DNA of 64,000 nt. Source: Alteromonas pelagimontana (GTDB lineage: Bacteria > Pseudomonadota > Gammaproteobacteria > Enterobacterales > Alteromonadaceae). Positions within the stretch are counted from its first letter, which is position 1; the number at the start of each line of letters is the position of its first letter. The stretch is from the NCBI RefSeq assembly GCF_002499975.2, contig NZ_CP052766.1, positions 2,046,001 through 2,110,000 of the forward strand. The letters run 5' to 3'. Of this stretch, positions 10,066-27,231 are shown one piece after another. The notes beneath the pieces were generated by a model. The model searched no databases. It was given only the letters and a program-made list of their open reading frames with translations, and was not told where the DNA came from. A program made the position numbers and the translations under genes.

Positions 10066-10079
10066 CCGCAAAGACCAAG

Positions 10080-11573: not shown

Positions 11574-12305
11574 TCAATACATGCCGCCGTTTACGCTAAT
11601 CACTTGCCGCGTGATGTATTTTGCTTCATCTGAGACTAAAAAACCGATGGTATTTGCCACATCATCGACGTGGCCGAAGCTGCCCAGAGGTATCATTTTC
11701 TTTGCCTCATCTGCGACTGCGCCTTCTATCATCCCGGTTTCTATGACCCCCGGTGCTACACAATTTACCGTAATCTTGCGCTTGCCGAGTTCTATTGCCA
11801 ATGCCTTGGTTGCGCCAATAATGCCTGCCTTCGATGCACTGTAATTAGTCTGCCCGCGATTGCCCATAAGGCCTGACACGGATGACAAGGTCACAATCCG
11901 ACCGCCCTTCCGCAGCCGGATCATGGGCATAACAGTGGGGTGCAATACATTGTAAAACCCATCAAGATTGGTATGGACAACGCCGTCCCATTCGTCACCT
12001 GTCATTGCCGGGAATGCAGTATCTTTTGTTACGCCAGCATTACATACCACGCCATAAAAAGCGCCGTAGCTTTCGATATAAGATTCAATCGCACCACGGG
12101 TGCCTTCTCTGTCACTTATATCGAATTGTAATGCGCTGGCTTCGCCGCCAGTATTATTAATATTTTCTACCACTTCTGTGGCTGCGTCTTTTCCGCTTCG
12201 ATAGTGAACCGCAACAGCAAAGCCCTGGCTGGCTAGTTTATACGCGGTGGCTTTACCGATCCCACTGCTGGCTCCCGTAACTAAGACTCTTTTTTTATCC
12301 GGCAT
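11574..12305 (-). CDS. 3-oxoacyl-ACP reductase (FabG/ApeQ-like) of the aryl polyene cluster
   Basis: A 243-residue short-chain dehydrogenase. The nucleotide-binding motif TGASSGIG is at residues 10-17, CNAG at 88-91, and the catalytic YSASK at 155-159 with Ser near 142-144. It reduces the beta-keto group on ACP-bound polyene intermediates with NADPH, the ApeQ role in aryl polyene synthesis. The ATG at 12305 (MPDKKRVLV) is chosen. A longer frame back to 12398 would add a hydrophobic stretch belonging to the overlapping exporter gene. The start overlaps the exporter end by 11 nt. Confidence 0.9.
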   Translation of the reverse strand: MPDKKRVLVTGASSGIGKATAYKLASQGFAVAVHYRSGKDAATEVVENINNTGGEASALQFDISDREGTRGAIESYIESYGAFYGVVCNAGVTKDTAFPAMTGDEWDGVVHTNLDGFYNVLHPTVMPMIRLRKGGRIVTLSSVSGLMGNRGQTNYSASKAGIIGATKALAIELGKRKITVNCVAPGVIETGMIEGAVADEAKKMIPLGSFGHVDDVANTIGFLVSDEAKYITRQVISVNGGMY

Positions 12306-14607
12306 GTGGTCTTTCCTTCCTTTCCTGCGAGTGATGATTGAACAGACTGATTGCAGCAATAAAATTAATAGTATTACCGATAAGAATAGTGCTACCAAAC
12401 GCCTGCACTATTGGCATTGAACTAAACGCTAACAGCCCGAATGACAACAAACTGGTAACCGCAGACAATAAGATTGCCTGTTGCGTTGTGGCACGCTGGT
12501 TCGCCATTTCTTTGGCAAAAATGATGTAATCCATTCCCAGCCCGAGCACCAGAAATAACGCCATAATGTGAAATACTGTGATTGACTGACCTGCTAGTGA
12601 TATGGTGGCCAGCGTGATTACACTGGCTACCATGGGTATAAGCAACAAAGATAGTGTGGCAATTTTGCGGTAATACAGCATTAGCACCACCGCAATAAAC
12701 ACATAAGCCAGCACCAGTAATTTAGACCCGGTTACCCGCTGCGCTTTGAGCGACTCGGTTGCTTTAGCCAAGGTGTTTACGTACTGAAGCTGTGCCACCC
12801 GCCCGCTAACTTCTTCAATTTTTGCTAAATCGTTATTTTTTTTAATTAACGCGAAGCTATAGATTTGCCCGTTTTGCTCTATCCATAACGGAGGTAAAGA
12901 TGGGAGCGCGGCCAGCAGGTCCGGGACCTCCAATGTGTTACCCTGAGCTTCGCGATACGCAGCTTTGCTCTTTGCGACCGCCGATATATCTAAGCCTAAG
13001 CGCGAAGAAAAAATGTCAACGGCACCGCCATCTTTGTACAGCTTTTCTTGCAGCCGGTAGTTATCGCGCTGCTGCGAAGGTGAGGGCAGCCAGTCAAGAA
13101 TACTGAAAATTGCCTGGCTTTCTTCACCTAATTCATCATATAACGATATGAAAGTATTAATCACAGCCTCACGACTTTCACCCTGTACCAGCAAATAGCG
13201 ACCAGGCTCGTACATCTGAGCCAATGAAGCAACCTCGCTTTCCTGCGTCAACAAAGATGGCGAGACATGGAAAAACCGTCTGGGATCGTCGTTTACGGCG
13301 GTATTCCCCATAACCAGAAATACCGCCCCCGCGCCAGCCAACGCCAGTCCACCCGCAATCAGCCAACGAGGCTGACGTGCAAACACAGCCTGGCAACCAT
13401 ATATCACCTGGCGCAGCATTGCCTGTCGAGCTTCAATAGGGCGTTTGGTAACCAGCGGCCCGAGTACCATTACGCTCAGCCAGGCCATGAACAAACCGGA
13501 ACAGGAGAACAAGGCGACTTTTTTTAAAATGAGCAGGTCAGCTAAGCCCAGCGCACCATAACCAATCAATGATGTCAGTACACTCAGCACCATCGCCCTG
13601 ACCAAAGTACGGTTGTGCGTGCCCGCTGAATTGCCTCGCTGATGCGCGAGAAAGTGATAAAAATAGTGCAGTGAATAATCCACGACTATTCCGATAAGGC
13701 TGGCACCAAAAACAATGGTAAGTATGTGGACTGAGCCAAACATCAGGATGCTGGTCAGCACGCCAAAACTTACGCCAATGGCAATCGAGCTTAACGAAAG
13801 CAGTAGTGGTAACAGCGAGCGAAATACTAATAACATGAGCACCAGCACACCCAAAATGGAGCCTACGGCGATAAGCTGAATATCACTTTTCGCTGACTGC
13901 GCTGAGTCTACCGCAAAGAAAAACATACCCGAGTGTAATACTTTGACGTCGTACTGCTCGCTGATACTGGACTCAATAGCCCGGATAGCCTGATAAAGGG
14001 ATTCCTGCCGGGCCATATTTTCAGAGTATTGGTTGAAGAAAACTGAGAATGACGCAACAGTGTACTCCGCTTTTTCATTACCATTACCCTCGATATCTAA
14101 TGTTGCCGCCTGAGAAAGCACGTATTCAGAAAACCAGCCCATCGGATCTTCATCAAAAGGGATGACTCTGACGCCGTTGCCAAGCTGGTATAACTTGCGC
14201 TGCGCATCACCTGCGAGCTGATCGCTGCTTTGCTCACTGAGCGCCTGTCGCTGGGACTCAGATAACAAGTTAAAGCGATAGGGGGCAAGGGCATTGAGGT
14301 AGTTTTTTTGAATTTCATCGTCAGCAATGACTGACAGGGAAGGCAGTTGATTAAATTTTACCTGCATCGCCGCGCCGGCCCGGGACACGGCTGAATCGTC
14401 CTCACCTTTAATCACCACAACGAAGCGCTGGCTCACATCCTGATTAAGGGTGTCCAGCGCCCGCTTCATTCCGGGGTTATCGATTTTTTCAGGATTGAGG
14501 TCGTTAAGACTGGTTTCGATAAGAATATGCTGCGAGCCAAATACGAAAAATACAGCGGTCATCACAAATGTAATTACAAAGATGAGCCTGGCAAGCAGCG
14601 GCATCAT
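12295..14607 (-). CDS. MMPL/RND-family exporter of the aryl polyene cluster
   Basis: A 770-residue inner-membrane protein of the MMPL/RND superfamily. It has an N-terminal membrane helix, a periplasmic domain (about 30-240), a membrane block (about 240-390), a second periplasmic domain (about 430-635) and a C-terminal membrane block (about 640-755). The conserved GIVVDYSLHYF and GLGMDYIIF segments mark the two halves. Aryl polyene and xanthomonadin clusters carry such an exporter next to a LolA-like protein, and together they are thought to move the lipidated pigment to the outer membrane. It starts 6 bp after the LolA-like gene. Confidence 0.88.
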   Translation of the reverse strand: MMPLLARLIFVITFVMTAVFFVFGSQHILIETSLNDLNPEKIDNPGMKRALDTLNQDVSQRFVVVIKGEDDSAVSRAGAAMQVKFNQLPSLSVIADDEIQKNYLNALAPYRFNLLSESQRQALSEQSSDQLAGDAQRKLYQLGNGVRVIPFDEDPMGWFSEYVLSQAATLDIEGNGNEKAEYTVASFSVFFNQYSENMARQESLYQAIRAIESSISEQYDVKVLHSGMFFFAVDSAQSAKSDIQLIAVGSILGVLVLMLLVFRSLLPLLLSLSSIAIGVSFGVLTSILMFGSVHILTIVFGASLIGIVVDYSLHYFYHFLAHQRGNSAGTHNRTLVRAMVLSVLTSLIGYGALGLADLLILKKVALFSCSGLFMAWLSVMVLGPLVTKRPIEARQAMLRQVIYGCQAVFARQPRWLIAGGLALAGAGAVFLVMGNTAVNDDPRRFFHVSPSLLTQESEVASLAQMYEPGRYLLVQGESREAVINTFISLYDELGEESQAIFSILDWLPSPSQQRDNYRLQEKLYKDGGAVDIFSSRLGLDISAVAKSKAAYREAQGNTLEVPDLLAALPSLPPLWIEQNGQIYSFALIKKNNDLAKIEEVSGRVAQLQYVNTLAKATESLKAQRVTGSKLLVLAYVFIAVVLMLYYRKIATLSLLLIPMVASVITLATISLAGQSITVFHIMALFLVLGLGMDYIIFAKEMANQRATTQQAILLSAVTSLLSFGLLAFSSMPIVQAFGSTILIGNTINFIAAISLFNHHSQERKERPHAG

Positions 14608-14613
14608 AGATTA

Positions 14614-15309
14614 CTACAGTCTGTCAGCGCGTGAGGGTGATCTGAGGATCTGACACCATTGCCGGTTATCAGCATATAATTGTTCACACTGCTCAAAGGC
14701 GCGTCGTTTGCCTTCGATGTTATAAGCCTCGATATTATTGATATTTACATCAGTAACCTGTCCCGTGGCATCCAGTACACTGACCATAAGCGACACACCT
14801 GCCTTTGCATCCTCTGCCTTTTTAAAACGGATGCTCTGAAGCCCTTTTTTCATAAACTCACTTTCTGGTTTCAGCTCAACTGATTCGTTATCTTGCGTCT
14901 GAGAAATGGCAAATTCCTCAACAAAATAGTCAGTGTCTGCCTGCAAAACCCTGACAAACACATGGGACATAATATATCGGGTCACACCCGTGAGTGGGCT
15001 CAGGGAGCCATTCTCTTCCACACGATAATTATTGGCGCTGTTGACGTATAAAATAGTTTCTTCGAATGGCGAACGGGTGTGCCAGATAAGCCCTAAATTA
15101 CAGGAATAGAAAAAGTCGCCATCTGATTTAAGCGGAACAGGAAGGCCCTCAACATTTTTTTGCTGAGTAAAGTGCCCAGAAAAGTGACATTGTTCGGGAA
15201 AAATATCGTTAAGCAAGGACTCTTCATCAGTTACACTTTCGCTGGCAGATAAGCACTGGCTTATTATTACAAGCATAAGCGCAGCGAGCCGTTTCCCTTG
15301 TTTAATCAT
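14614..15309 (-). CDS. LolA-like periplasmic carrier of the aryl polyene cluster
   Basis: A 231-residue exported protein with a signal peptide (about 1-23, RLAALMLVIISQCLSASES) followed by a LolA-like beta-sandwich. Recognisable stretches are FSGHFTQQKNVEG near 42 and the LGLIWHTRSPFEETILYV segment. Housekeeping LolA shuttles lipoproteins from the inner to the outer membrane. The copy in pigment clusters presumably carries the hydrophobic aryl polyene lipid handed over by the MMPL exporter. Its start overlaps the thioesterase gene by 8 nt. Confidence 0.82.
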   Translation of the reverse strand: MIKQGKRLAALMLVIISQCLSASESVTDEESLLNDIFPEQCHFSGHFTQQKNVEGLPVPLKSDGDFFYSCNLGLIWHTRSPFEETILYVNSANNYRVEENGSLSPLTGVTRYIMSHVFVRVLQADTDYFVEEFAISQTQDNESVELKPESEFMKKGLQSIRFKKAEDAKAGVSLMVSVLDATGQVTDVNINNIEAYNIEGKRRAFEQCEQLYADNRQWCQILRSPSRADRL

Positions 15310-15721
15310 CTTTTTTCATCCACGCGTTGACCGCATCTACCACAAACGCAGGCATTTCATATTGGGTGATCCGCTCTGCCATAGCAACGGCAAACTGTGT
15401 GGATTTTGCTTTGGTGCAAATGTCACCGCTTTGCTGGTCTCTGATTACATAGTTAATCTTAAGACGGTTCTTCCATTCCACCAGATAAGATTCAATGATA
15501 ATTTTTTGTTCAAATACTAATGGCTTTACGTACTTGACCTGCAAATCAACAATGGGAAAAAAGAAGCCATGCTCTTCCATAACGCCATACGGGCAACCAA
15601 TATCGTTAAGCAATGCACAGCGCGACATCTCCAGGTATTTCGGGTAATTACCATGCCACACCACCCGATATGAATCGACGTCGAAAAAGGGAATATTGTA
15701 GTTCAGCGCAACGCGTTTCAT
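15302..15721 (-). CDS. Hotdog-fold acyl thioesterase (ApeK-like)
   Basis: A 139-residue single hotdog domain of the 4-hydroxybenzoyl-CoA thioesterase type. The active-site segment is FFDVDSYRVVWHGNYPKYLE (residues 12-31), which carries the family's central Asp-x-x-x-x-Val-x-His-x-x-Tyr pattern in slightly altered form. It probably hydrolyses or edits polyene-ACP thioesters; a dehydratase-like role is possible because the fold is shared. It overlaps the ACP gene upstream by 4 nt and the LolA-like gene downstream by 8 nt. Confidence 0.82.
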   Translation of the reverse strand: MKRVALNYNIPFFDVDSYRVVWHGNYPKYLEMSRCALLNDIGCPYGVMEEHGFFFPIVDLQVKYVKPLVFEQKIIIESYLVEWKNRLKINYVIRDQQSGDICTKAKSTQFAVAMAERITQYEMPAFVVDAVNAWMKKDD

Positions 15722-15981
15722 TGCGTGTTACGCTTCACTGAAAAGTTTGCAGATACATCCACTACGTCCTGAACCGTTTTGACCTTATTAAACTGAGGCG
15801 GTGTAATTTCTACCTTGGTGGTCTTTTTAAGGTCAGTTAACAAATCCACAGCATCTATGCTGTCGATATCCAAGTCTTCATAAAGTCGGGCTTCTGGAAC
15901 GATATCGGGCTCATCAAGTTCAAAAAGTTCCGCTACGACTCCGCAGTTTTGCGCGAGTATATTCTCTTTCTCTGCATTCAT
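15718..15981 (-). CDS. Acyl carrier protein, second ACP of the cluster
   Basis: An 87-residue acyl carrier protein. The attachment motif is DIDSIDAVDLL, with Ser41 as the phosphopantetheine site. It is acidic and helical throughout and starts at the ATG at 15981. It heads the second minus-strand run (ACP, thioesterase, LolA-like, MMPL, ketoreductase). Aryl polyene systems use two ACPs, one for the aryl starter and one for chain extension. Which role this one plays cannot be read from sequence; its nearness to the chorismatase hints at starter loading. Confidence 0.88.
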   Translation of the reverse strand: MNAEKENILAQNCGVVAELFELDEPDIVPEARLYEDLDIDSIDAVDLLTDLKKTTKVEITPPQFNKVKTVQDVVDVSANFSVKRNTQ

Positions 15982-16120
15982 ATTTTTTCCGCTACATCTT
16001 TTGAGCCAGGCAATGTCGGGGGTACCGATAATTCTTCTTCAAGCCCCTAAATTTGCCCTAGTGTGGTAAAAATTAGAGTAACGCACTAACGACCTCTGAT
16101 TACAAACATCATTTTGCATC

Positions 16121-17059
16121 TTATTGACAGAAACACTCTATTTCTACCAGTAGATCTCTTCGACATATATCCGCAATTGTATAAACGGCGTCTACATGGG
16201 GGTACCGCTGATTTATCCAGCTTCTGGTTCTTGAAACATGTTCAGCATGGCGTATATACACTTTAAACGTCGATAGTGTCAGCTTGTCTGGATTAGCATG
16301 GTTAAGTAAATGCTCGATATTGTTCATCGTTACTTCCAGTTGTCGCTCCAGATCCCCTGCTTCAACCGTTTGATGTCCAATGATACTCGCCGTACCGGAA
16401 ATGAATAAGTAGCCTTGCTGTTGCAGCCTTAGAGTTGTCGCTCTGGCAAAGGAGGGGCTGCTGATACCGTACTGGCGAGGGTATTCATACGCATTTATCT
16501 GTTTATTATTATTGAAGTGCTGTGGTTTGGCGCTACTGGCAAACACATAGAATACCGCCCCTTCGTTATGATGACCTAACGCTGACGCTGAAGGAAAAGC
16601 AGCTGGGGGTATGCCAGCCGTTTGAAACGCCTTTAACCGGCCGGTACAAAACTTCTTATACACTTCCTTATCACCGTCTCCCGCATTGATTCCGGGCAGA
16701 TAATTCCAGAAGCGGAATGGATAGGGGTATCCTTGCTCGTTCAAGACGTAAAGTAATGACTCATAAGCCTGCTGCGTTTTAAGTTCGATCTGCTGGCAGT
16801 CGTCTTTACTTAACCAGTGGGCAATACAAATAATATCGGCAGATTTAGACCAGTAACTCTGCCCGGTTTGCCCGCGCGTAACGTCCCCCTTTAATGACCA
16901 TACCTCGTTCATTTTGCTGCCGCTCGCCTCTACTATGCCCGACGGAATGAGTCCTGCTCCAAAAGGCTCGCACCGATTAACCAATGGAATAATCGCCAAG
17001 GTATCATTTTTTGAAAGTAATTCAGTGGCTGATGAGGTAGTAAAACTGTGGCTTAACAT
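16121..17059 (-). CDS. Chorismatase (XanB2/Hyg5-type) making hydroxybenzoate
   Basis: A 312-residue protein of the chorismatase family (XanB2, Hyg5, FkbO; YjgF-related fold). Visible family landmarks are RFWNYLPGIN (116-125), FCTGRLKAF (137-145), FPSASALG (155-162), SPSFARAT (201-208) and FISGTASIIGHQTVEAGD (219-236), the last in the active-site region. XanB2 converts chorismate to 3- and 4-hydroxybenzoate, the aryl starter of xanthomonadin. Here it should feed the divergent AMP-ligase. The ATG at 17059 (MLSHSF) is chosen; the 49 extra codons upstream are non-homologous. The exact product, 3-hydroxy-, 4-hydroxy- or 3,4-dihydroxy-, is not predictable by eye. Confidence 0.8.
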   Translation of the reverse strand: MLSHSFTTSSATELLSKNDTLAIIPLVNRCEPFGAGLIPSGIVEASGSKMNEVWSLKGDVTRGQTGQSYWSKSADIICIAHWLSKDDCQQIELKTQQAYESLLYVLNEQGYPYPFRFWNYLPGINAGDGDKEVYKKFCTGRLKAFQTAGIPPAAFPSASALGHHNEGAVFYVFASSAKPQHFNNNKQINAYEYPRQYGISSPSFARATTLRLQQQGYLFISGTASIIGHQTVEAGDLERQLEVTMNNIEHLLNHANPDKLTLSTFKVYIRHAEHVSRTRSWINQRYPHVDAVYTIADICRRDLLVEIECFCQ

Positions 17060-17322: not shown

Positions 17323-18684
17323 ATGATCAATACGTTTCCTTTAGTCACACGCCGGCCTGATGAGGCAATTGCTTTTTTAACCAAGCCAGTTGCTGGGCTT
17401 TCTGCCGGTAAAATATGTACATGCACTTTTCTCTCCCATGTTGAACGCGTTGCATCGTCTCTTGAAAAGGGCGAGTACGCGATAAACCTGTGTGAAAACC
17501 GCTATCTGTTTCTTGTCAGCTTTTGCGCCGCTATCTTACGAAGCCAAACGAATTTATTGCCTCCGAACAAGAACCTTGCCACTCAGGAACAACTGCTACA
17601 AGAGTACAGCAACTGTTACATTATTCATGATGGCTGCGACACAGCAACCTCGGCAAAAAGTGTTAACCTGTTAACGTCAAATTTCGATCCGGCAAAAGAG
17701 GTTGATTTTGATATACCGGACATTGCCGATGATCATCTTGCGTGTATAAGTTTTACCTCAGGTTCAACCGGCCGTTCCAAACCGAATCTGAAATATTGGA
17801 AAACCTTACATCGCAGTACTGCCATCAATTATGAGTTTATGATCCCGCCCACTGACGACACGGTATATCAACTGGCGACAATGCCGGCTCAACATATGTG
17901 GGGCCTGGAAACTTCTGCGCTGATGCCGCTGTTTAAGAATGTGTGTATGAGTGATGCTAAACCGCTTTTCCCTCAGGATATTGTCGACACCCTTGGTGCT
18001 TTACCTGAGCCTCGCTGCCTGGTATCTACTCCGGTTCACCTGCGGGCGCTGTCTGCTACTACTGAGGTCCCAATCCCGTGTCATGTTGTACTTTGTGCCA
18101 CATCTCCGCTCACCAGTGAGCTGGCTTGTGAAATTGAACAACAATTTATTGCTCCGCTGCACGAAGTGTATGGCTGCAGTGAAGCTGGCTCAATGGCGGT
18201 GCGAAGAACGGCTACAGAAAAGCATTGGCGAAGGTTTGATGGAATTCATTTTCACATTGAAGGCACAACCACCACAGTTACCGCAGATCACCTGCCGTCG
18301 TCGACTGTGTTACAGGATTTCATTAAGCGAATAGATGATAACCATTTTACGCTGGCGGGTAGGGCCACGGATTTAATAAAAATTGCTGGCAAGCGAGGCT
18401 CATTGTTTGAAATAAATCAGACACTACTGCGGTTTGAGGGACTAAAGGACGGCATCGTTATCTTTCCTGAATCCAACAGCACCATCCCGCGTTTGTGTGC
18501 GATTGTTGCCCTTAAACCAGGTGTACAAAAGTCCTCCCTCATTCACTATCTAAAAGTCCATCTTGACAGTGCTTTTGTCCCCAGGCCTGTCTATGTGGTG
18601 GATTCTCTCCCACGGGAAAGTAACGGTAAGTTACTTAAAATAAAAATTGACGATCTATATGCTTCGCTTAAGCGCAAGCGATAG
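17323..18684 (+). CDS. AMP-dependent acyl/aryl ligase (ApeH/XanA2-like)
   Basis: A 453-residue ANL-superfamily adenylating enzyme. The phosphate-binding loop SFTSGSTGRSKP is at 143-154, the adenylate motif VYGCSEAGS follows mid-protein, the hinge GRATDLIKIAGKRG precedes the small domain, and the C-terminal catalytic lysine lies in ESNGKLLKI. It should activate the aryl acid with ATP and load it onto an ACP (or CoA). It is the only biosynthetic enzyme on the plus strand in the cluster body, divergent from the chorismatase across 263 bp and converging on the broken KS gene. That layout suggests starter synthesis and loading form a regulatory pair. Confidence 0.87.
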   Translation: MINTFPLVTRRPDEAIAFLTKPVAGLSAGKICTCTFLSHVERVASSLEKGEYAINLCENRYLFLVSFCAAILRSQTNLLPPNKNLATQEQLLQEYSNCYIIHDGCDTATSAKSVNLLTSNFDPAKEVDFDIPDIADDHLACISFTSGSTGRSKPNLKYWKTLHRSTAINYEFMIPPTDDTVYQLATMPAQHMWGLETSALMPLFKNVCMSDAKPLFPQDIVDTLGALPEPRCLVSTPVHLRALSATTEVPIPCHVVLCATSPLTSELACEIEQQFIAPLHEVYGCSEAGSMAVRRTATEKHWRRFDGIHFHIEGTTTTVTADHLPSSTVLQDFIKRIDDNHFTLAGRATDLIKIAGKRGSLFEINQTLLRFEGLKDGIVIFPESNSTIPRLCAIVALKPGVQKSSLIHYLKVHLDSAFVPRPVYVVDSLPRESNGKLLKIKIDDLYASLKRKR

Positions 18685-18703
18685 TAATTAAACCAGCTTA
18701 AAA

Positions 18704-18969
18704 CTACTGATATTCGGTGGACAGTACACCCATCCAGGCTACTCTGCCCATGCTGCGTTTTTTCTTTTTCGTGTAATAGACTGGCAGTTCAAAATGATGG
18801 ATGGGGAAGCAAAATAAGTTCCAGGGCCTTCGTACTTTTGCCAGTCCTGCATAAAGCGAACGGCAGATTCCTTCGAGAGATTTGCTTTAACCTGTGCCCA
18901 GTCATCGCCTAGCCATGAAACCACACCGGCACCGGTAATAACGACACGTCTATATTCAGTACTGCTCAA
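18704..18969 (-). pseudogene. Truncated and frameshifted beta-ketoacyl-ACP synthase (FabF/ApeR-like)
   Basis: The remnant starts normally (MSSTEYRRVVITGAGVVSWL), overlapping the dehydratase gene by 4 nt, and matches FabF-type N-termini to about residue 52. One base is missing in a C-run (plus-strand G-run 18803-18806). Restoring it gives PIHHFELPVYYTKKKKRSMG and RVAWMGVLSTEYQ, the expected KS continuation, which then stops at 18704. About 320 residues including the catalytic Cys-His-His are absent; the convergent AMP-ligase gene lies there instead. In aryl polyene operons this position holds the second KS (ApeR), so this is a decayed copy. Confidence 0.85.
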
Positions 18970-19430
18970 AATGCGTCCCTTGAAGAAATCGGGCGACGAA
19001 AAACAGACAAACTAGCGGTGGCCAGACGTCGGTTATCTTTTGCGTTTTCAGCGTAATTTTCGATGATGCAATCAAACGTTGCAAGCTCATTGCCTACCAG
19101 TGCTTTCTCAACACAGCTCACCTTAAGTATGCCGTCAGGAAAATAGTCGCATTCGGCGTTATAAGACCGTGTGCCCAGTAAAAATCCCAGGTGAGCCCCG
19201 ACAAGGCCTTGTTGCCGTTGGTAACCGGCTATCAATGCGGCCGTTTGACCCATGTATTCCAGCCCTATCCAAGCCGGTACGCCTTTTCCCTCGTAAAACG
19301 GCGACTCCACGTCCACGGTTACCAGTGAAGAGGATGAAGACGCATTGACCTCGATTATTTTATTAATCAAGAGCATCGGCGGGCGGTGGGGGATCAGATC
19401 ATATAAACGGTTGTCATAACGGGCCTGCAT
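18966..19430 (-). CDS. 3-hydroxyacyl-ACP dehydratase (ApeP-like)
   Basis: A 154-residue hotdog-fold dehydratase. The opening DLIPHRPPMLLINKI and the later GVPAWIGLEYMGQTAALIAG are the signatures of the FabZ-related ApeP group; the first contains the usual active-site His. It removes water from 3-hydroxyacyl-ACP to build the conjugated polyene, in published systems as a partner of the second dehydratase (ApeI). It lies 5 bp after the acyltransferase gene and overlaps the start of the broken KS by 4 nt. Confidence 0.88.
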   Translation of the reverse strand: MQARYDNRLYDLIPHRPPMLLINKIIEVNASSSSSLVTVDVESPFYEGKGVPAWIGLEYMGQTAALIAGYQRQQGLVGAHLGFLLGTRSYNAECDYFPDGILKVSCVEKALVGNELATFDCIIENYAENAKDNRRLATASLSVFRRPISSRDAF

Positions 19431-19435
19431 TTACT

Positions 19436-20443
19436 TTACTCTTTGTTCGCGTGTTTCATTTGTTCTTCACTACAATGGGCAAGGGGACGCCAGAAATCGT
19501 AAAAATTAAACCACTGAAAGGGCGCTCTCAGGCAGTGTTCCTCCAGCTTATCCGCAAACTGCTGGGCATACTTTTTAATATCGGCCTGACGGGTGCTTCG
19601 GGCTATCTCTAACTTGTCGCACACTTGGGTTACGTCAAACACTACTTTATTGTTCGCCGGCTGGTGCCGGTAAGCAAACATGAAGTTAACCGGGCAGGCT
19701 AGTGCTTTTGCCAGCATATACGGTCCAATAGGCAAGGGTGCATTCTCTCCCAGAAAGTCTACATCAACGGTGCGCTCGAGTCCGCTTAGCGGAATACGAT
19801 CGCCGGCAATAAACACCCATTCACCAGAATCGACCTTTGCTTTTAGCATCATGATGGTGGTCACATCAAATTCATCTACCTGAAATACATTCAAACGTGA
19901 CGCATCATTCTGTTTCTGCATCATTTTGACAAAATTGCCGGCGTGTTTATCGTAGATAAGTATATTAATCGTTTTACTTCTGTAGCGGTGCATAAATCCG
20001 CGACAAAACTCCAGGTTGCCAAAATGAGAGCCAATGATGAGCTGCCCCCGCTCGTCCGCCAAAAGTTTCTCGACTCGCTCTTCAGAGGTGAGAACAAAGT
20101 CACTTTCTTTAATCGGCACCCGCCAGCCAAGGAGCTTATCCAGAATAACCTCAGCGAAGCTTTTAAAATGCAACAGGACATGGATATTATTCGGTTTGCT
20201 TCGCCAGCTCTGCGGGCTTTTACGGTAATGGGCCCGCAAAAACTGCAGGGATGCGCTGCGCTGCTCAGGCCGGCTGATAACGAAATACAATGCTACCGGA
20301 TACATCATTAACGAGAAAATCCACCGGCCAAATACCCGATAAATAACAAACACTAACTGCATACCGGTTAAGGTGCCCGCCTCTTGGATCCGAGACCAAT
20401 GGCGGGAGGACGTATCATGCGCTTCGGCTTTACTTGTTGTCAT
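19436..20443 (-). CDS. Lysophospholipid-type acyltransferase of the aryl polyene cluster
   Basis: A 335-residue membrane-associated acyltransferase of the LpxL/HtrB-like family. It has an N-terminal hydrophobic segment (about 38-58), the catalytic GSHFGNLEFCR with the H-x4-E pattern near 137-147, and a downstream GDRIPL substrate-binding motif. In aryl polyene clusters this enzyme is proposed to attach the pigment acyl chain to a glycerolipid or glycolipid anchor. It follows the glycosyltransferase gene after 3 bp, so the two probably build the lipid anchor together. Confidence 0.85.
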   Translation of the reverse strand: MTTSKAEAHDTSSRHWSRIQEAGTLTGMQLVFVIYRVFGRWIFSLMMYPVALYFVISRPEQRSASLQFLRAHYRKSPQSWRSKPNNIHVLLHFKSFAEVILDKLLGWRVPIKESDFVLTSEERVEKLLADERGQLIIGSHFGNLEFCRGFMHRYRSKTINILIYDKHAGNFVKMMQKQNDASRLNVFQVDEFDVTTIMMLKAKVDSGEWVFIAGDRIPLSGLERTVDVDFLGENAPLPIGPYMLAKALACPVNFMFAYRHQPANNKVVFDVTQVCDKLEIARSTRQADIKKYAQQFADKLEEHCLRAPFQWFNFYDFWRPLAHCSEEQMKHANKE

Positions 20444-20446
20444 TAG

Positions 20447-21190
20447 TTAACCAAACCATGATTTTACACGCATGAACAATATGCGCGGAAGCCGCACTAT
20501 CATGCCACACATTAGCCGCACGTGAAGCCTGGACTGTGTCAGGTTGTCTCGTAAATAATGATAATGAGACACCGTATCCTGATGGTAAATCACTTTAGTG
20601 GGAATAAAGTGTACATCGATATCCGCCCACGTGGCTTTAACCAGCAACTCCGGGTCGAAGTCCATTCTTGGCCCCAGATAATAGTTATCAAAAACACGTT
20701 CAATTTCTTTGACAGGATACAATCGGAAGCCGCAAAGCCCGTCTTTTATCTTAAACGACAAGGTTTCCAGGGCCGTCCAAAAATCAGAAACCCTGCGTCC
20801 ATATTTACGTACTGTAGGCACGGTTTCGTCAAAGTAAGGCTGACCAGAAATAAACGAGGATGGGTGATCCTTGCTGTAAGCAATAAACTTTTCAACGTCT
20901 TCAATATCATGCTGTCCATCAGCATCTAACTGTATAACATGGCTAAAACCCATTGCGCTCGCGTGATAGCAACCGGTGATGACGGAAGCGCCTTTGCCCC
21001 GATTCGTCTGATGACGCACCAGATGAAAATCAGGAAGAGAGGTAAGCATTTGTTTGATCTTTTCAAAACCCGTTTCGCCGCTTCCATCATCAACCACAAT
21101 GCAAGGCAGATTCAGCCGCACCAGCTTAGGAAGGAATTTTTCGAACAACACTTCATGTTTATAGTGAGGAATAATAAGGCAGTATTTCAT
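20447..21190 (-). CDS. Family 2 glycosyltransferase of the aryl polyene cluster
   Basis: A 247-residue GT-A fold glycosyltransferase. Motifs are CLIIPHYKH at the start, VVDDGSGETG near 33, NRGKGASV near 63, and DADGQHD near 89 for nucleotide-sugar/metal binding. It is likely cytoplasmic or peripheral at the inner membrane, with a hydrophobic C-terminus. It presumably adds a sugar to the lipid anchor or the polyene. It overlaps the ApeI-like gene by 4 nt upstream and precedes the acyltransferase by 3 bp. Confidence 0.87.
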   Translation of the reverse strand: MKYCLIIPHYKHEVLFEKFLPKLVRLNLPCIVVDDGSGETGFEKIKQMLTSLPDFHLVRHQTNRGKGASVITGCYHASAMGFSHVIQLDADGQHDIEDVEKFIAYSKDHPSSFISGQPYFDETVPTVRKYGRRVSDFWTALETLSFKIKDGLCGFRLYPVKEIERVFDNYYLGPRMDFDPELLVKATWADIDVHFIPTKVIYHQDTVSHYHYLRDNLTQSRLHVRLMCGMIVRLPRILFMRVKSWFG

Positions 21191-21573
21191 GATGGAATAA
21201 ACTTAAAGCTACCCATTGAGAAAGATTCACTGTCATTGAAAAAGTGAAATTTGAGGATGCCTTTTTCTGCACTGTAGATTAATTCGAGTATCATACTGGT
21301 ACCAGGCAAAACCATAGTTTTAAATTTGATATTAGTTAACTGCCTGGACGCAGAATTTTTGACAAAGAGGGCTCTGCCTATTTTTCCTGCCCAATCAACT
21401 TGTACTACGCCGGGCAGTACCGGTTGTTCGGGAAAATGGCCTTCGAACCACGCCAAACTTTCCGGCACATGCAGCGTAATTTGCGCATTGGTATCAGACG
21501 CTTCAACGGCGATTATTGCAGGCCGCTCGAGTTCCTTGAAAAGAGTTTTGAGATTTTCCACGCTGTTATTCAT
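21187..21573 (-). CDS. Hotdog dehydratase (ApeI-like)
   Basis: A 128-residue FabA/FabZ-like hotdog protein. The active-site segment WFEGHFPEQPVLPGVVQVDW (about 43-62) carries the GHFPxxPVxPGV signature and catalytic His. It is expected to work with the ApeP-like dehydratase to form trans double bonds during chain extension. It overlaps its neighbours by 8 nt and 4 nt, within one continuous translational unit. Confidence 0.88.
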   Translation of the reverse strand: MNNSVENLKTLFKELERPAIIAVEASDTNAQITLHVPESLAWFEGHFPEQPVLPGVVQVDWAGKIGRALFVKNSASRQLTNIKFKTMVLPGTSMILELIYSAEKGILKFHFFNDSESFSMGSFKFIPS

Positions 21574-22156
21574 CGACGATACTATGTCTCTTTTTGTAAT
21601 AGCCGCGATAGCTCAATTCCATTAAGGCGAAACCTGCCAGCAGCAGATAGGAAATAATGCCGTTATATAAAGCCCATGTCGACAAACTGGCAAACAAAGC
21701 TGTGTAGGCAGCAACAGCGCCATTTCCAAGTAACAATACGCCCCACACCATACTTAGAGCGCGTAGGTAATCCCGCGCCTGTTCTGGCACAGTGCTGCCA
21801 CTGGCGCGTGCAAACTTTTCGATCAGGGTTTGTTGATCTTTAAGAGACAGGAGAAACATCAGTCCCATTCCCGCATTCATCATAACCGGATAGAATTTCA
21901 ACAGCACCACACTGTCAAACAATATTATGGCCACACAAAATGTTCCGGCGAATGCTGTTGCGATCGAGTCGGTACGGCTTTTTATCTTCCCAACAAAGAC
22001 CAGGCGCAATGCCAAAACACTCAATAAAATGATGGCAAACCATTGTGGGCGCACAGATTCAAGGTTGAGATAGACAATGGCAGGATAGGCAATTGTGAAG
22101 CCAACTAGTAGCAAAGTGATAACACCTGTATGCCTGGCTTGGCTGAAATTATTCAT
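21566..22156 (-). CDS. COG4648-type membrane protein of the aryl polyene cluster
   Basis: A 196-residue integral membrane protein with about six hydrophobic segments, including GVITLLLVGFTIAYPAIVYL at the N-terminus. It belongs by context and character to the conserved membrane proteins (COG4648) found in aryl polyene operons, whose function is unknown. The ATG at 22156 forms a TGATG overlap with the flavoprotein stop codon. An ATG five codons upstream is possible but would overlap more. Confidence 0.75.
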   Translation of the reverse strand: MNNFSQARHTGVITLLLVGFTIAYPAIVYLNLESVRPQWFAIILLSVLALRLVFVGKIKSRTDSIATAFAGTFCVAIILFDSVVLLKFYPVMMNAGMGLMFLLSLKDQQTLIEKFARASGSTVPEQARDYLRALSMVWGVLLLGNGAVAAYTALFASLSTWALYNGIISYLLLAGFALMELSYRGYYKKRHSIVDE

Positions 22157-23727
22157 CAGGCCAGCACGCATAACCGATAATCCCCGAGTATTTCACGCTC
22201 TGCGTCTTCAATATTCATTGATGGGTTATCACTGAGCATGTCTTCAAAGTAAGGGACGACTTTTCTCATCAACTCAGTATTTAACGCCAGCGCTTGTTCA
22301 ACTTCAATATCAGTCTCTTTAAGCACCTCATTTAACTGTCTCAGGCACGGCACCAGAAACTGGTTCATAAATACACCTTTGGCCGGTAACACTAAACGCT
22401 TCTGCGCGCGCTGGCTTAGCAGCATCTGCATCTTTTTATTGAGTTTTTGCGACACTAACAGGTTTGGCATAATTTTACGCATCATCTGAATGTTGCCGAT
22501 TGTGTCGGTAAAGAACAGGAGTGCGAGCACGCCCCAGTAGTAGATGTAGTCCCATACCAACTTAACAGACATCATTTTTCGATCGCCAAATCCGCCATAC
22601 TGATTTGTATACAGCGACAAGGTATTTTCAAAAAAAGCGTCGTTAAATTTATGAAACAGCGCGCTGTCAAAACGTATATCCTGACCTTGCATATCCCGTT
22701 CAATCAGATGGGTAATAAAGGTGTTGTTTAACGCGATGAAGTCGCTGCCGGGTGAATAAAAGGGGTCGGAAAACGCTCCGGCTTCACCAGTCATCGCCCA
22801 GCCCTGATCGGAAAACATCTGTGTGCAGCCGTAGGAGTAATCCCGCATGATTTTAAAATCGAGCAATTCGGCGCCTTCAATAGCCTTAGCGCACAAAGGG
22901 TGCTGTTCATAAAGCCATGCCATTGTATCTTCAAATGATGTAATTTTACTCTCAGCGAGAGCCTGATCATCCATAACGATGCCGAAACTGGTGGCGCCAG
23001 AGGAAAGCGGAATTATCCACACCCAATAACCCGGCCCCATTAGATGATTAGTACTTAACCAACGCTTACCTGGCACGCAGATACGTTCCTGCCAGGCCTT
23101 ATTGTCAGACCATTCATCTATGATCACGCGGCGGTTTATTCTAAAGAAAACCGCGTTTCCTTTGTGGCCGGTATCCGTACTCAGACCTAACTGGTTCCTG
23201 AGAAGGGCCTGACGTCCGGCGGCATCAATCACCCACCTGCTGGTACAGGTTTGCAGCTTTCCATCTTTGCGGTATTCAACCTGATGCTGCTTATTACCCA
23301 GCGCAATATTTTCAGGCACAGCACCATCAAGGATAACAATGCCTCTTGCGGCTAGCAGCTGAAACAGGTGGTTTTCCAGGGTACCACGCTCTATTTGATA
23401 GGCGGGAATACCAAATAATTCACTTACGCCCAGTTCATCGTAGTCACTGTAATCACTTTCAACGTGGCCAAAAAACAGCCGCAAGCCGTGTTTGCGCAAA
23501 TGCTTTTGCTTAAAATGCTCTTTAAGCCCCAGCACATCAGTAAAATAATGCGCTGCGATTTCAACGGTGGATTCGCCTACTTTTACCGTGGTGTCCGGTA
23601 CCGGAAAGGTGTTTTTCTCTATGATAACAATGCCCAGCTCGGGATTGCGGTTATGTAGCTGAAGCGCCAGACTCATGCCGGCCAGCCCGCCGCCGGCTAT
23701 GATGACATCGGTATTTGCGTGTTTCAT
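22156..23727 (-). CDS. FAD-dependent oxidoreductase, tryptophan-halogenase-like
   Basis: A 523-residue flavoprotein. The FAD-binding motif AGGGLAGMS is at residues 11-19, KVGESTVE at 49-56, WVWIIP at 235-240, and GEAGAFSDPFYSPGSDFIAL follows around residue 315. WxWxIP is the motif used to recognise flavin-dependent halogenases, and a lysine at residue 79 (LRKHG) lies where the catalytic Lys is expected. Related genes occur in xanthomonadin and aryl polyene clusters; xanthomonadins are brominated. Halogenation, hydroxylation or other oxidation of the aryl head are all possible. It overlaps both neighbours by 1-4 nt. Confidence 0.8.
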   Translation of the reverse strand: MKHANTDVIIAGGGLAGMSLALQLHNRNPELGIVIIEKNTFPVPDTTVKVGESTVEIAAHYFTDVLGLKEHFKQKHLRKHGLRLFFGHVESDYSDYDELGVSELFGIPAYQIERGTLENHLFQLLAARGIVILDGAVPENIALGNKQHQVEYRKDGKLQTCTSRWVIDAAGRQALLRNQLGLSTDTGHKGNAVFFRINRRVIIDEWSDNKAWQERICVPGKRWLSTNHLMGPGYWVWIIPLSSGATSFGIVMDDQALAESKITSFEDTMAWLYEQHPLCAKAIEGAELLDFKIMRDYSYGCTQMFSDQGWAMTGEAGAFSDPFYSPGSDFIALNNTFITHLIERDMQGQDIRFDSALFHKFNDAFFENTLSLYTNQYGGFGDRKMMSVKLVWDYIYYWGVLALLFFTDTIGNIQMMRKIMPNLLVSQKLNKKMQMLLSQRAQKRLVLPAKGVFMNQFLVPCLRQLNEVLKETDIEVEQALALNTELMRKVVPYFEDMLSDNPSMNIEDAEREILGDYRLCVLA

Positions 23728-24551
23728 ACCCTGCCCTGCGAACGCTGAAATGTAACCGATGTACCTTTACTCAATGGCATCTTCACCACGTCTTCGCACG
23801 CGAATGACTGAGTCAGAAGCGGGGCTAAGCTCAATATTTTCGCAGTGGGATTATTAGCATACAGCGCGGCGATATATTCGTTACTGCTTTGCAATTGAGG
23901 CCACGGCGCTCGCTCGTTATAAGTCACATTTGCGCGTATTAAGGTGCCGTCAATATCGGCTGATGCGGGGTATAGAATGAGAGAAAAAGCAAAAGGTTCA
24001 CGGTTCGCCAGAATCGGCTGCAGTACATCAGCCACCGGTGCATCGTAAAAAGTCACCAGTAACGGGACATTTTCTGACTCGCACTGAATCATCGCTTCTA
24101 GCAGGGTAAGTGATACAGATTCTTCATAGCCGGCAACTGAATTCGCTGCACTCATGGTTTTTGTGCTGATGGTCCAGTATCCGGCTGGCGCATTGTGCAC
24201 CGAGTTATGGAACTTGGTCGGCGATAGTTCTTTGTGCTCAGAGGCGAGGGTTTTACACATATAATCGGTAAGATCTGTGTCACCCAAACCGGAGACAAAC
24301 ACGCAGGTAAGCGATTCTGGAGGCACATTGGCCGCCTGCGTTGCCTGCCATGAACTTTCTACCGCAAGTCTTACCGGAAGTGGTGCCCGGCGACGCTCGT
24401 TTGCGGGGATAACAGCAGGCTTTGGGCCTACGTTTTTTGTTTGCCCTACATCGCTGCCCTGCATTAACTGTTGTAATTCGTCCCAGTTAGCAAAGTAGCT
24501 GCCCCAGGCTCCGACACTCACAATTTTACATGCTAATTCTTTGGCCTGCAT
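23724..24551 (-). CDS. Beta-ketoacyl synthase-like partner (chain-length-factor type, ApeC-like)
   Basis: A 275-residue protein matching the N-terminal ketoacyl-synthase-like family (Ketoacyl-synt_2). It contains VFVSGLGDTDLTDYM and KFHNSVHNAPAGYW but lacks the TACSSS nucleophile, so it cannot condense alone. In characterised systems ApeC forms an inactive-subunit heterodimer with the KS ApeO and shapes product length. The ATG at 24551 lies 1 nt after the KS stop; the longer frame from 24602 would read inside the KS gene. Confidence 0.82.
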   Translation of the reverse strand: MQAKELACKIVSVGAWGSYFANWDELQQLMQGSDVGQTKNVGPKPAVIPANERRRAPLPVRLAVESSWQATQAANVPPESLTCVFVSGLGDTDLTDYMCKTLASEHKELSPTKFHNSVHNAPAGYWTISTKTMSAANSVAGYEESVSLTLLEAMIQCESENVPLLVTFYDAPVADVLQPILANREPFAFSLILYPASADIDGTLIRANVTYNERAPWPQLQSSNEYIAALYANNPTAKILSLAPLLTQSFACEDVVKMPLSKGTSVTFQRSQGRV

Positions 24552-24552
24552 A

Positions 24553-25731
24553 TCACCCAACCCTGCTAAACAATAACGTACAGTTGTTACCGCCAAAACC
24601 AAATGAATTCGTCATTACGTGCTGGCAAACTCTTTGCTGATCTGTCGCCTGAATAGAAAAATCGAGCGCCTGGTCTAGCGTCTCAAGATTCATAGAGCCT
24701 GGGATCGTATTGGTTTTCAAAGTGTCCATTGCAATTATTGCTTCAGTGATCCCGGCAGCGCCCAGCGTATGCCCCATCCAGGCTTTGGTTGATGAGCATA
24801 AGGTGGTTCTGGGAAACAGTTCCGACACCAGCCGCCCCTCAATAAGATCATTCGCCCGGCTGGACGTACCGTGTAAATTGATATAATCAATGGCGTCAGG
24901 TGGCAATTGCGCCCGTTGTAGTGCCTGCGTCATTGACATTTTTGCACCCAGGCCATCAGGGTGAGGGTGTGACATATGATGCGCGTCTGAACTTTCGCCA
25001 TAACCTGTTAACCGGATCCCACTGCTATTGGTATTTTCCGTGCCCCGTTGAAGAATGGCAAAGCCTGACGCTTCTCCTAAGTTGATGCCATCTCTGTGTT
25101 GATCAAAGGGTTTACAAGGGTTCTCAGATAGCAACTGCAATGAATTAAAACCGTGCAGTACGCTCAGGCAAAGGGTATCAACGCCGCCAACAAGCACCGC
25201 ATCGACAATTCCAAATTCAAGCCAGCGCGCACCGGTGGCGAACACTTTAGCCGAGGAAGAACACGCTGTGTTAATGGTTAGCGACGGCCCCGTGAGCCCG
25301 GTGTAATGAGCAACAAAAAGACTGGGTGCATGTGGATTATGAACTAAAGGCTGTCTGAATTTTGGCTTCAGTTCGCCGTTCGTATCCAGATCCGTATAGG
25401 CAGTTTCCGTTCTGTCGATACTGGAAGTGCTTGATCCCATCACAATACCGATACGGGCTGAACCATACTTTTTCGTTAAGTTAGCAAGGGTTTGTTTGAT
25501 TGCCCCCTGCTCCAGACCCAACGCAGCGAGGGCGTTGTTGCGGCTTTGCCACTGCTGTAAATCATCTATGGCATCAACCTGCTCAACGCGGCCTATCCAG
25601 GTATTTAATGCTGAATCTGGCAAGTCATTTTTGATCAAACCGCTTTTATGCTGCCTGAGAGACACGCGTAGTGCCGCAAGGTTAATGCCGGCCGCAGAGC
25701 AGGATTCGTAGTCGATAATATCTATGTTCAT
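24553..25731 (-). CDS. Beta-ketoacyl-ACP synthase (ApeO-like)
   Basis: A 392-residue condensing enzyme with an intact catalytic triad: Cys157 in NTACSSS, His287 in NLHGTSS and His321 in MGHTLGAAG. It extends the aryl starter by decarboxylative condensation with malonyl-ACP. It is translated just before its non-catalytic partner and starts at the ATG at 25731. With the second KS gene broken, this is the only complete KS in the window and presumably carries the whole extension, perhaps helped by FabF from fatty acid synthesis. Confidence 0.9.
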   Translation of the reverse strand: MNIDIIDYESCSAAGINLAALRVSLRQHKSGLIKNDLPDSALNTWIGRVEQVDAIDDLQQWQSRNNALAALGLEQGAIKQTLANLTKKYGSARIGIVMGSSTSSIDRTETAYTDLDTNGELKPKFRQPLVHNPHAPSLFVAHYTGLTGPSLTINTACSSSAKVFATGARWLEFGIVDAVLVGGVDTLCLSVLHGFNSLQLLSENPCKPFDQHRDGINLGEASGFAILQRGTENTNSSGIRLTGYGESSDAHHMSHPHPDGLGAKMSMTQALQRAQLPPDAIDYINLHGTSSRANDLIEGRLVSELFPRTTLCSSTKAWMGHTLGAAGITEAIIAMDTLKTNTIPGSMNLETLDQALDFSIQATDQQRVCQHVMTNSFGFGGNNCTLLFSRVG

Positions 25732-25974
25732 GAATTAGCAGGTACTCGGTTCTGGCTTAACAACCACACAACAATAAAATAGAGCCTGGTCGAAAAATTC
25801 ACATATATTGCAGGAATTATATTGAAACCCTCGCCAGGACGATAATGAGAAGCTACCGATACTGCTGCAAGGTTGCAAGTGTTGAATCTGCCAGTTTACC
25901 CGCGCACAGACGTAACCAAGTATGACATTCTTTTGGTATTTCAAACGCCTGGAAGAAGCTTTGCTAAAACAGTT

Positions 25975-26238
25975 CTATTTATTTTTTTCCACGAACGCGG
26001 TCAGGCTTCGTAAGGTTGCAAACGCTTCGCGAGTTCCTTCATCTTCCGCTTTGATTTGTACGCCGTATTCTTTCGATATCGCAAGAGATATCTCCAGTGC
26101 ATCAATTGAATCAAGGCCAAGACCATCACCAAACAGTTGCTCTTCCGGATTAATATCTTCAGCTTCCATGTCTTCAAGATTTAACGCATCAACCAATAGC
26201 TGAGCCATTTTATTTTCAGATTCGGTTTGTCTAGACAT
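25975..26238 (-). CDS. Acyl carrier protein, first ACP of the cluster
   Basis: An 87-residue acyl carrier protein with the attachment motif GLDSIDALEI and Ser44 as phosphopantetheine site. The GDGLGLDSIDALE context is typical of the ApeE-type ACPs. It stands divergent from the phosphopantetheinyl transferase gene across 177 bp. The KS gene begins 243 bp downstream. The gap between them has no gene-like frame, and other clusters usually have more tightly packed genes here. Confidence 0.88.
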   Translation of the reverse strand: MSRQTESENKMAQLLVDALNLEDMEAEDINPEEQLFGDGLGLDSIDALEISLAISKEYGVQIKAEDEGTREAFATLRSLTAFVEKNK

Positions 26239-26415
26239 AGTTAATGTAATCCTTGCAATATGACTGCTTCTATAAAGCTCGTCAGTTTAAACTAATAGAA
26301 CGCTAAAAACTATTTATGCGTTTAAACCTATCCTCATCGATTTATGAGCGCATAGCATCGCGGGGTGGTATAAATGTCGTTTACATTTTATTAAGCTGTT
26401 TTAGCAGCATCTATA

Positions 26416-27231
26416 ATGCTAAAGGTCACTGTGATTTCCCCTTCACCCTCGACACCTATCGCCATTCCTCGTGACGAAATACATGTCTGGCTCGTAGATA
26501 TTTTGAAGATGCAGCGAGCCGATATTTTGGGCGAGTGCTCGGCTATGCTGAGCAAAGACGAGAATGACAGACTGAAATCTTTTCGCTCGCAAAGCAGAAA
26601 GCAGCAGTTTCTCGTTTCGCGAGCAGCATTGCGTTCTGTTGTTAGCTGCTATTCACCTGAAGAATCCGCGAAGTCGCTTCGCTTTACAACCAATGCGCAT
26701 GGAAAGCCTGAACTTGTAGTCAATCCGCTAGCTCTGCAGTTTAACCTGTCGCACTCCCGTGACAAGGTAGTAATAGGGGTAGCAAAGCGGCGCGCTATCG
26801 GTGTTGATGTAGAATTCGTTGACCGTAACCGCAATACAAAAAGAATTGCTGATCACTATTTCCACCCCAACGAATGGAGCAGCGAACTTTTGCAAAAAGA
26901 CGTGGAAGCAGGCAATGATAGCGCATTGCGTTTTTTTACATTATGGACGCTGAAAGAAGCCTTAATTAAAGCTGAAGGGAAAGGGCTGGCCATTGCGTTG
27001 AATACGTTTTGGTTTTCTCTGGATAACACTCTGCAGCCGACACTGGTAAGGGCTAAACATACGCTTGCCGAAAGAGCGTGGTCCTTCTCACGCCGGGTTG
27101 TCGATGAAGATTACTGTGTGGCAATTGCATATGAGAACAATCAAGAGCATGTGCCCACCACCCTTATCATGAAACGCTTTGTTCACGAATTCTGTTTAAC
27201 CGGTGGCGTTAGGTTTAAAAAGGGGCGTTGA
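26416..27231 (+). CDS. 4'-phosphopantetheinyl transferase, Sfp type
   Basis: A 271-residue Sfp-type transferase that converts apo-ACPs to holo-ACPs using CoA. Motifs are FNLSHSRD (P1-like), IGVDVEFVD (Mg/CoA binding) and FTLWTLKEALIKAEGKGL (the W/F-xx-KEA-xxK signature). It is divergent from ACP1, so a shared promoter region at 26239-26415 may tie activation of the carriers to expression of the pigment operon. ATG at 26416. The last 30 residues (after EHVPTT) look non-homologous and may vary between strains. Confidence 0.9.
   Translation: MLKVTVISPSPSTPIAIPRDEIHVWLVDILKMQRADILGECSAMLSKDENDRLKSFRSQSRKQQFLVSRAALRSVVSCYSPEESAKSLRFTTNAHGKPELVVNPLALQFNLSHSRDKVVIGVAKRRAIGVDVEFVDRNRNTKRIADHYFHPNEWSSELLQKDVEAGNDSALRFFTLWTLKEALIKAEGKGLAIALNTFWFSLDNTLQPTLVRAKHTLAERAWSFSRRVVDEDYCVAIAYENNQEHVPTTLIMKRFVHEFCLTGGVRFKKGR

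Follow-up and report, generated by a model that had tools for sequence, protein, structure and literature searches.

We analyzed a 64,000-nt stretch of the Alteromonas pelagimontana genome, which is a single contig of 4.31 Mb (NZ_CP052766.1, positions 2,046,001 to 2,110,000; hereafter, the window), and focused on a pigment gene cluster at positions 11574–27231 of it. We consider it likely that this cluster encodes an aryl polyene (APE) type II polyketide synthase pathway that is primed by a chorismatase, in the manner of xanthomonadin and arcuflavin, that is common to part of the genus Alteromonas, and that has been trimmed in this species. Pathways of this type are known and widespread; what is new is the trimmed state, namely that this Alteromonas copy lacks the ketosynthase ApeR and the acyltransferase ApeD that its relatives retain.

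Protein families were named by Pfam and NCBIfam searches and by direct comparison with the ape genes of E. coli CFT073 (ApeA–R). Twelve cluster genes paired one-to-one with ApeC, ApeE–I, ApeK–M, and ApeO–Q, while a glycosyltransferase (GT) and an LpxL-like acyltransferase (LPLAT) proved to be two separate proteins, each matching one half of ApeJ. These 14 matches, together with the recurrence of the gene order in 13 other Alteromonas loci, exclude chance, and they bear out the assignment to aryl polyene synthesis made in an earlier, sequence-only note on this DNA, which had also proposed a comparison with APE references. Specifically, the cluster combines an ApeO-type ketosynthase and an ApeC-type half-size chain length factor (although the match to ApeC is weak, at 25 bits) with an ApeI/ApeP dehydratase pair, an ApeQ ketoreductase, two acyl carrier proteins (ACPs), and an ApeK thioesterase. 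The second ketosynthase, ApeR, is present only as a frameshifted N-terminal remnant; we did not count it as defining for APE because E. coli ΔapeR retains APE lipid (PMC8253772).

The genes form two runs on the (−) strand. The upper run (26238–18966) starts with the first ACP (ACP1; 25975–26238; PF00550; 43.6% identity to ApeE) and the ketosynthase (24553–25731), which is 43.8% identical to ApeO, retains the Cys-His-His motifs, and has the ApeO–ApeC complex as its best PDB match (6qsp_A, with 7f28_B next). It continues with the chain length factor (23724–24602; PF13723; weak matches to 7f28_A and 6qsp_B), a flavin-dependent halogenase-like enzyme (22156–23727; PF04820), an ApeG-type membrane protein (21566–22171; 94 bits), the ApeI-type dehydratase (21187–21573; PF22818; 35% identity to ApeI; match to 6qsr_A), the family 2 GT (20447–21190; PF00535; ApeJ residues 8–246, 248 bits), the LPLAT (19436–20443; PF03279; ApeJ residues 246–550, 212 bits), and the ApeP-type dehydratase (18966–19430; PF22817; 31% identity to ApeP). 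The lower run (15981–11574) comprises the second ACP (ACP2; 15718–15981; PF00550; 51% identity to ApeF), which retains its Ser, the 4HBT thioesterase (15302–15721; PF13279; 44% identity to ApeK), a LolA-like carrier (14614–15309; PF03548 below cutoff; 29 bits in the ApeL profile comparison), an MMPL/RND exporter (12295–14607; PF03176; 180 bits for ApeM), and the FabG2-type ketoreductase (11574–12305; TIGR01831 above cutoff; 58.8% identity to ApeQ). Between the two runs lie the starter-supply chorismatase, of the 3-hydroxybenzoate (3-HBA)-forming type (16121–17059, (−) strand; PF21168, E = 6.8e-30; TIGR04444 below its cutoff), and a divergent AMP-ligase resembling ApeH and ArcT (17323–18684, (+) strand; PF00501; 93 bits for ApeH), as had been described from the sequence. 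The cluster's own 4′-phosphopantetheinyl transferase (PPTase) of the Sfp/HetI type, also foreseen, is encoded at 26416–27231 on the (+) strand (PF01648). The TTG starts listed for the chorismatase (17206) and the ketoreductase (12398) probably make these genes too long: with the ATG at 17059, the chorismatase starts where its relative in locus L034 does, and the ketoreductase likely starts at the ATG at 12305.

Relative to E. coli CFT073, the cluster adds the chorismatase, the flavoenzyme (without a significant profile match among ApeA–R), and the PPTase, and it lacks ApeD and all but the remnant of ApeR; among the cluster families compared with the E. coli genes, none corresponded to ApeA, ApeB (a methyltransferase), or ApeN. 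Consistent with the earlier note, ammonia lyase and methyltransferase families had zero matches in the 20 open reading frames scanned between 10547 and 28864, which were picked from 49 listed for 8000–31000.

ApeR and ApeD in the window and its relatives

The complete cluster occurs in identical order in 14 loci (the window, L034–L039, and L218–L224), among them those of A. aquimaris and A. indica, and a comparison of these loci exposed both losses. In 12 of the 14 (that is, 12 of the 13 others), the ApeP-like and ligase genes flank an intact ketosynthase gene (protein length in L034, 415 aa). This relatives' protein shares 59.5% identity with E. coli ApeR, and its best PDB matches are 7f27 and 4ewg, which are described as A. 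baumannii ApeR and an ApeR homologue, respectively (PMC8358021). At this position, the window carries a remnant of this FabB/F-type ketosynthase (18686–18969, (−) strand; recovered as BLAST and HMMER pieces), which the earlier note had not mentioned. Only the first ~90–100 of ~415 codons are left, in two frames, and the remainder is deleted. The HMMER pieces span 18969–18760 and 18811–18686, the second containing two stops, the BLAST pieces stop at 18713, and the distance between the last ApeR-matching stretch and the ligase stop codon (18684) is 2 to 29 bp. A single-base assembly error was ruled out as the sole break, since a further ~315–325 codons are also missing. A close ApeR copy elsewhere in the genome was likewise ruled out; the best outside ketosynthase matches (39% and 37%) are probably housekeeping enzymes of the FabF/FabB type.

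Among these loci, the loss of ApeD is specific to the window. In all of the 13 others, a PlsC-type acyltransferase (PF01553; 263 aa in L034 and 290 aa in L038) is encoded between the chorismatase and ACP2, and this protein matches E. coli ApeD (39% identity, 172 bits). The window has a 139-bp deletion scar there (15982–16120, (−) strand), in which no ApeD remnant was found, and no other site in the genome carries a close ApeD copy (best acyltransferase matches, 27%).

A. indica (L038) is the other complete locus without ApeR, and it has ApeD. In a 14-taxon tree of 14 concatenated proteins (L225 and L112, whose clusters lie partly beyond the stretch, were omitted, and gap columns were dropped), the window grouped with L034 and L036 (support, 100), and L038 joined L220 (98) and then L218 (98). 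All four of these relatives have ApeR; since each of the two species thus groups with ApeR-bearing loci, their losses of ApeR are best read as independent. We also observed that the ACP2 frame of A. indica (L038, 13484–13750) is open and that the serine of the DSx motif is missing, leaving an ACP unable to carry phosphopantetheine.

Starter supply and the flavoenzyme

The chorismatase aligns with Hyg5-type and FkbO structures and retains Glu305, Cys298, and Gly221 (numbering of the 311-residue query, first Met omitted). The catalytic Glu, which corresponds to Glu-334 in Hyg5 (PMC7170507), is invariant across 21 aligned proteins, with residue numbers mapped by hand. In the stretch D-I-C-R-x-D-L-L-V-E, the Cys is shared with 5ag3, and FkbO has Ala there; the protein also reads SGTAS where FkbO reads SATAG. 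The published marks of Hyg5-type (CH-II) chorismatases are Gly-164, Gly-231, and Cys-318 in Nat-hyg5 numbering (PMC7170507). By hand mapping from the structure alignment, with a constant Nat-hyg5/Hyg5 offset assumed, two of the three are retained and Ala159 replaces the first Gly, as it also does in four Xanthomonadaceae homologues. The retained residues support the earlier proposal of a hydroxybenzoate starter made from chorismate.

The likeness to XanB2 and xanthomonadin systems, also claimed at that stage, held in part. The starter pair and the flavoenzyme do resemble the reported clusters, but the protein falls outside the Xanthomonas (XanB2) clade proper. In a 34-sequence tree, it lies inside a mainly marine gammaproteobacterial clade (support, 99), which in turn pairs (79) with a clade (84) made up of Xanthomonadaceae, Oleiagrimonas, betaproteobacterial, Methylococcus, and Nitrospira sequences; actinobacterial and Caballeronia proteins fall outside. 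The genome encodes a separate UbiC, and the chorismatase should therefore be unnecessary for ubiquinone. Its dedicated neighbor, the AMP-ligase, is predicted to load the starter onto an ACP, and ArcT is reported to activate 3-HBA in vitro (PMC3949708).

On these grounds, 3-HBA is the likely starter: the catalytic Glu and the Cys are kept, and window-only changes make up a smaller share in the chorismatase and the ligase than in any other protein (see below). The preference over 4-hydroxybenzoate (4-HBA) is read from sequence, and the same pathway could begin from 4-HBA supplied by the chorismatase or by UbiC, as in the E. coli APE system, for which a 4-HBA starter is predicted (PMC8253772). 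XanB2 and ArcB are both described as producing 3-HBA and 4-HBA (PMC3949708), which leaves room for this alternative. We nevertheless regard it as improbable, because UbiC-derived 4-HBA, if it were enough, would make a dedicated chorismatase redundant and because, in Lysobacter enzymogenes, chorismatase loss is reported to have cut pigment by ~90%, with 3-HBA feeding restoring it (PMC3691225). A further choice concerns the flavoenzyme, whose halogenase motifs were likewise absent from the earlier note. It retains GxGxxG, Lys, WxWxIP, and FxxPxxSxG in the alignment of all 14 complete loci, and we take FxxPxxSxG to be a fourth halogenase mark. A homologue of this 523-aa enzyme (71–78% identity) occurs in all six chorismatase-bearing genomes among 35 of the same genus and, at that identity, is absent from the others, which lack the chorismatase. 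From these motifs, the enzyme points to a possibly halogenated head group. The first three are published marks of flavin-dependent halogenases (PMC5945002), and halogenase genes are reported for the xanthomonadin and arcuflavin clusters of Xanthomonas and Azoarcus (PMC3949708, PMC3691225); the Lysobacter cluster is described as having none (PMC3691225). Nonetheless, a monooxygenase or desaturase that acts on either the polyene or the aryl group is a serious contender, if the less favored one. Homologues carry mixed source names (halogenase, but also oxidoreductase or dehydrogenase); weak homologues (25–28%) lie a few kilobases from the ApeP gene in the chorismatase-less genomes G011, G042, and G051; and only some of the 80 named chorismatase loci (at least 33) match the flavoenzyme profile, at least 9 of them above 400 bits. 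Moreover, the Glu of tryptophan halogenases, which we assume to lie at the FxxPxxSxG site, was not seen there; a role for this Glu in those enzymes is described in PMC5945002.

Probable activity of the pathway after gene loss

As we envisage it, the chorismatase would convert chorismate to 3-HBA and pyruvate, and the ligase would adenylate 3-HBA and load it onto an ACP, probably the ApeE-like one. By orthology, the ApeO–ApeC pair would extend the starter with malonyl units, with ApeQ reducing and ApeI/ApeP dehydrating each unit, and the ApeK, GT/LPLAT, LolA-like, and MMPL proteins would serve in release, attachment, and export of the pigment. The flavoenzyme, judged by its motifs, may halogenate the ring. 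With ApeR gone, all condensations would fall to ApeO–ApeC, and with ApeD gone, lipid attachment would be incomplete or achieved by other means.

Published experiments make such a reduced pathway plausible. A. baumannii ApeO–ApeC alone is reported to yield fully elongated polyene, with ApeR raising throughput (PMC8358021). In E. coli, ΔapeF and ΔapeD are described as retaining partial pigment, with pigment acids poorly attached in ΔapeD (PMC8253772). Each gene that is missing or dead in one of the two Alteromonas species is thus one that E. coli can lose and still be colored. Since APE products persist in E. coli without apeR, apeD, or apeF, the pathway here probably works by analogy despite its losses, perhaps with lower flux or altered anchoring. 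ApeO–ApeC is also described as binding holo-ACP1 (ApeE) much more tightly than ACP2 (ApeF), with ACP1 presumed to carry the starter; ACP2 was present in the ApeO–ApeC assays as the presumed malonyl deliverer (PMC8358021), a role that argues against ApeF being dispensable unless ApeE or a different ACP substitutes for it.

Sequence evolution bears on whether the remaining genes are still maintained. For 14 of the 16 pigment proteins of the window, the distance to outgroups does not markedly exceed that for A. aquimaris (ratio, 0.66–1.08), with ACP2 (1.72) and the GT (1.32) as exceptions; four housekeeping genes gave ratios of 0.62–0.98. We then counted single-taxon changes in 13 taxa, with L038 excluded and gap columns dropped. 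Window-only changes were fewest, as shares, in the chorismatase (2 of 22; expected share, 0.28) and the ligase (2 of 36; expected share, 0.30) and were in excess in ACP2 (9 of 14, p = 0.003) and the thioesterase (10 of 16, p = 0.0023), with a mild excess in the GT, DHP, and MEM201 (p = 0.02–0.03). This pattern fits a starter step still under selection while ACP2, the thioesterase, and the attachment side change. We also considered a coupling between ApeR loss and ApeF decay, ApeF being dead in A. indica and accelerated in the window; these are two cases, not significant alone, and the thioesterase is equally accelerated.

Several observations count against a working, chorismatase-primed pathway of this type. 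Of all tips in the 14-taxon tree, that of the window is the longest (0.266; the next is 0.218), and the window holds 110 of 401 single-taxon changes, the most of the 13 taxa, although it is also a lone branch. The excess of private changes in ACP2 and the thioesterase, borderline over 16 tests, is compatible with early decay. The chorismatase departs from the Hyg5 type at one of its three marks and is only 32% identical to Xanthomonas homologues. ΔapeR E. coli is reported to show some attachment-impaired intermediates, and in vitro work cited in the same paper needs ApeR for initiation (PMC8253772), which, if it applies, would make the pathway here silent or slow. Taken together with the ApeR remnant and the missing ApeD, the tree tip and the accelerated proteins could mean that the cluster is decaying, that pigment is no longer made, and that the two losses mark the onset of pseudogenization. 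We judge this to be unlikely. The other cluster genes are open, and the motifs checked in the ketosynthase, ACPs, chorismatase, and flavoenzyme are intact; most outgroup distances do not markedly exceed those of A. aquimaris; the chorismatase and ligase look constrained; and A. indica provides a second lineage without ApeR in which the other genes, except ACP2, are intact.

Distribution, genomic setting, and implications

Next, we examined how widely the arrangement is distributed. The chorismatase was found in 15 of 59 Alteromonas genomes, our own included. Of the 13 complete loci other than the window, 12 showed a PPTase next to the cluster. Among 369 gammaproteobacterial genomes drawn evenly from the class (again with our own), 72 had a chorismatase match, some of them weak (E up to 7.5e-4), and ketosynthase, chain length factor, ketoreductase, or MMPL genes lay near it in 13 of 18 long stretches taken from these genomes. 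In a second survey of named chorismatase loci, the best 80 of 568 confirmed loci were kept; many contigs end early, so its counts are lower bounds, and L108, L109, L110, and L111 duplicate L034, L039, L223, and L038 and are counted twice across surveys. At least 53 of the 80 had one of the same four gene types within their flanks, and at least 28 had a ligase of the window type, which in 24 of these was on the opposite strand to the chorismatase and in 26 was within 2.5 kb of it. In A. sediminis (L112), L089, L090, and others, a ligase–ACP1 pair diverges from a chorismatase–PlsC–ACP2–thioesterase–LolA–MMPL–ketoreductase run, and the ketoreductase is followed by a convergent ApeR–ApeP–LPLAT run. 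A layout unique to this genome is ruled out by its recurrence in other Alteromonas genomes. The architecture that had been taken for a hybrid of APE and xanthomonadin clusters is instead the standard form in a group of Alteromonas species, an established cluster form with its two runs rearranged here, and its backbone is, gene by gene, the E. coli-type APE set. Two further observations were made in these loci: in L119 (a metagenome-assembled Cellvibrionaceae bacterium), the halogenase-like and PlsC frames are each broken in two, which may reflect assembly errors or another eroding copy, and L089 (G410), from another family, has a relative of the window's OmpA/Gly-zipper gene (28887–29528) near the PPTase.

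Compared with published descriptions of the xanthomonadin (Xanthomonas) and arcuflavin (Azoarcus BH72) clusters, on which this likeness rests, the window shares the chorismatase and AMP-ligase, with a halogenase-like gene in place of the halogenase gene, as well as ketosynthase, GT, acyltransferase, LolA, and exporter genes (PMC3949708, PMC3691225). It differs from them in that no methyltransferase was found in its cluster and, from xanthomonadin, in its chorismatase of a separate clade. The arcuflavin genes, unlike those of the window, occupy two unlinked loci and include methyltransferase and dialkylresorcinol genes. An antiSMASH "aryl polyene" cluster has been published for an Alteromonas strain (PMC6588371); among the matches listed from the open-licence literature, taken by title and the start of the abstract, none reported chorismatase-primed clusters in Alteromonas or natural ApeR loss.

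The position beside the replication origin, which the earlier note had stressed, needs qualification: the cluster is near the origin, but dnaA (53043–54545; PF00308) is 25.8 kb from the PPTase end. The region at 53043–59267 holds dnaA, dnaN, an open reading frame in the recF position (55753–56838, putative by place), and gyrB consecutively. The cumulative GC skew has its minimum near 50–52 kb and rises over 52–60 kb, consistent with an origin inside the window, though the contig numbering begins elsewhere. Conserved placement beside the origin was ruled out by varying distances among genomes: dnaA is ~26–29 kb from the cluster in G000, G012, and G015, ~320 kb away in G014, and on a different contig in G016, G018, and G032. 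A 273-aa protein with weak DnaA-ATPase/IstB matches (46164–46985) lies between mnmG (43216–45150) and mnmE (48093–49478). On the other side, two HipA-type genes (2956–4206 and within 8436–10098, one with a HipB-like helix-turn-helix partner at 9775–10098) are adjoined by SEC-C motif proteins (7413–8417 and 10547–11554); this stretch forms a region of accessory genes next to the pigment cluster.

Published work calls the role of the two APE ketosynthases unclear (PMC8358021), and the in vitro and mutant data point in different ways. The two independent ApeR losses in Alteromonas, one also without ApeD and the other with a dead ApeF, are natural experiments that can be set beside complete relatives. 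Tentatively, ApeR and ApeF could be a dispensable accelerator module that has been removed naturally more than once, with both species still making a chorismatase-primed, possibly brominated pigment through ApeO–ApeC and ApeE alone or nearly so, here without the usual lipid anchor. If this is true, A. pelagimontana would represent a natural loss of apeR together with apeD, and A. indica one of apeR together with apeF. The characterized cases considered here (Xanthomonas, Lysobacter, and Azoarcus) come from plant-associated or soil bacteria, and the Alteromonas clusters provide a marine setting for chorismatase-primed, possibly halogenated aryl polyenes.

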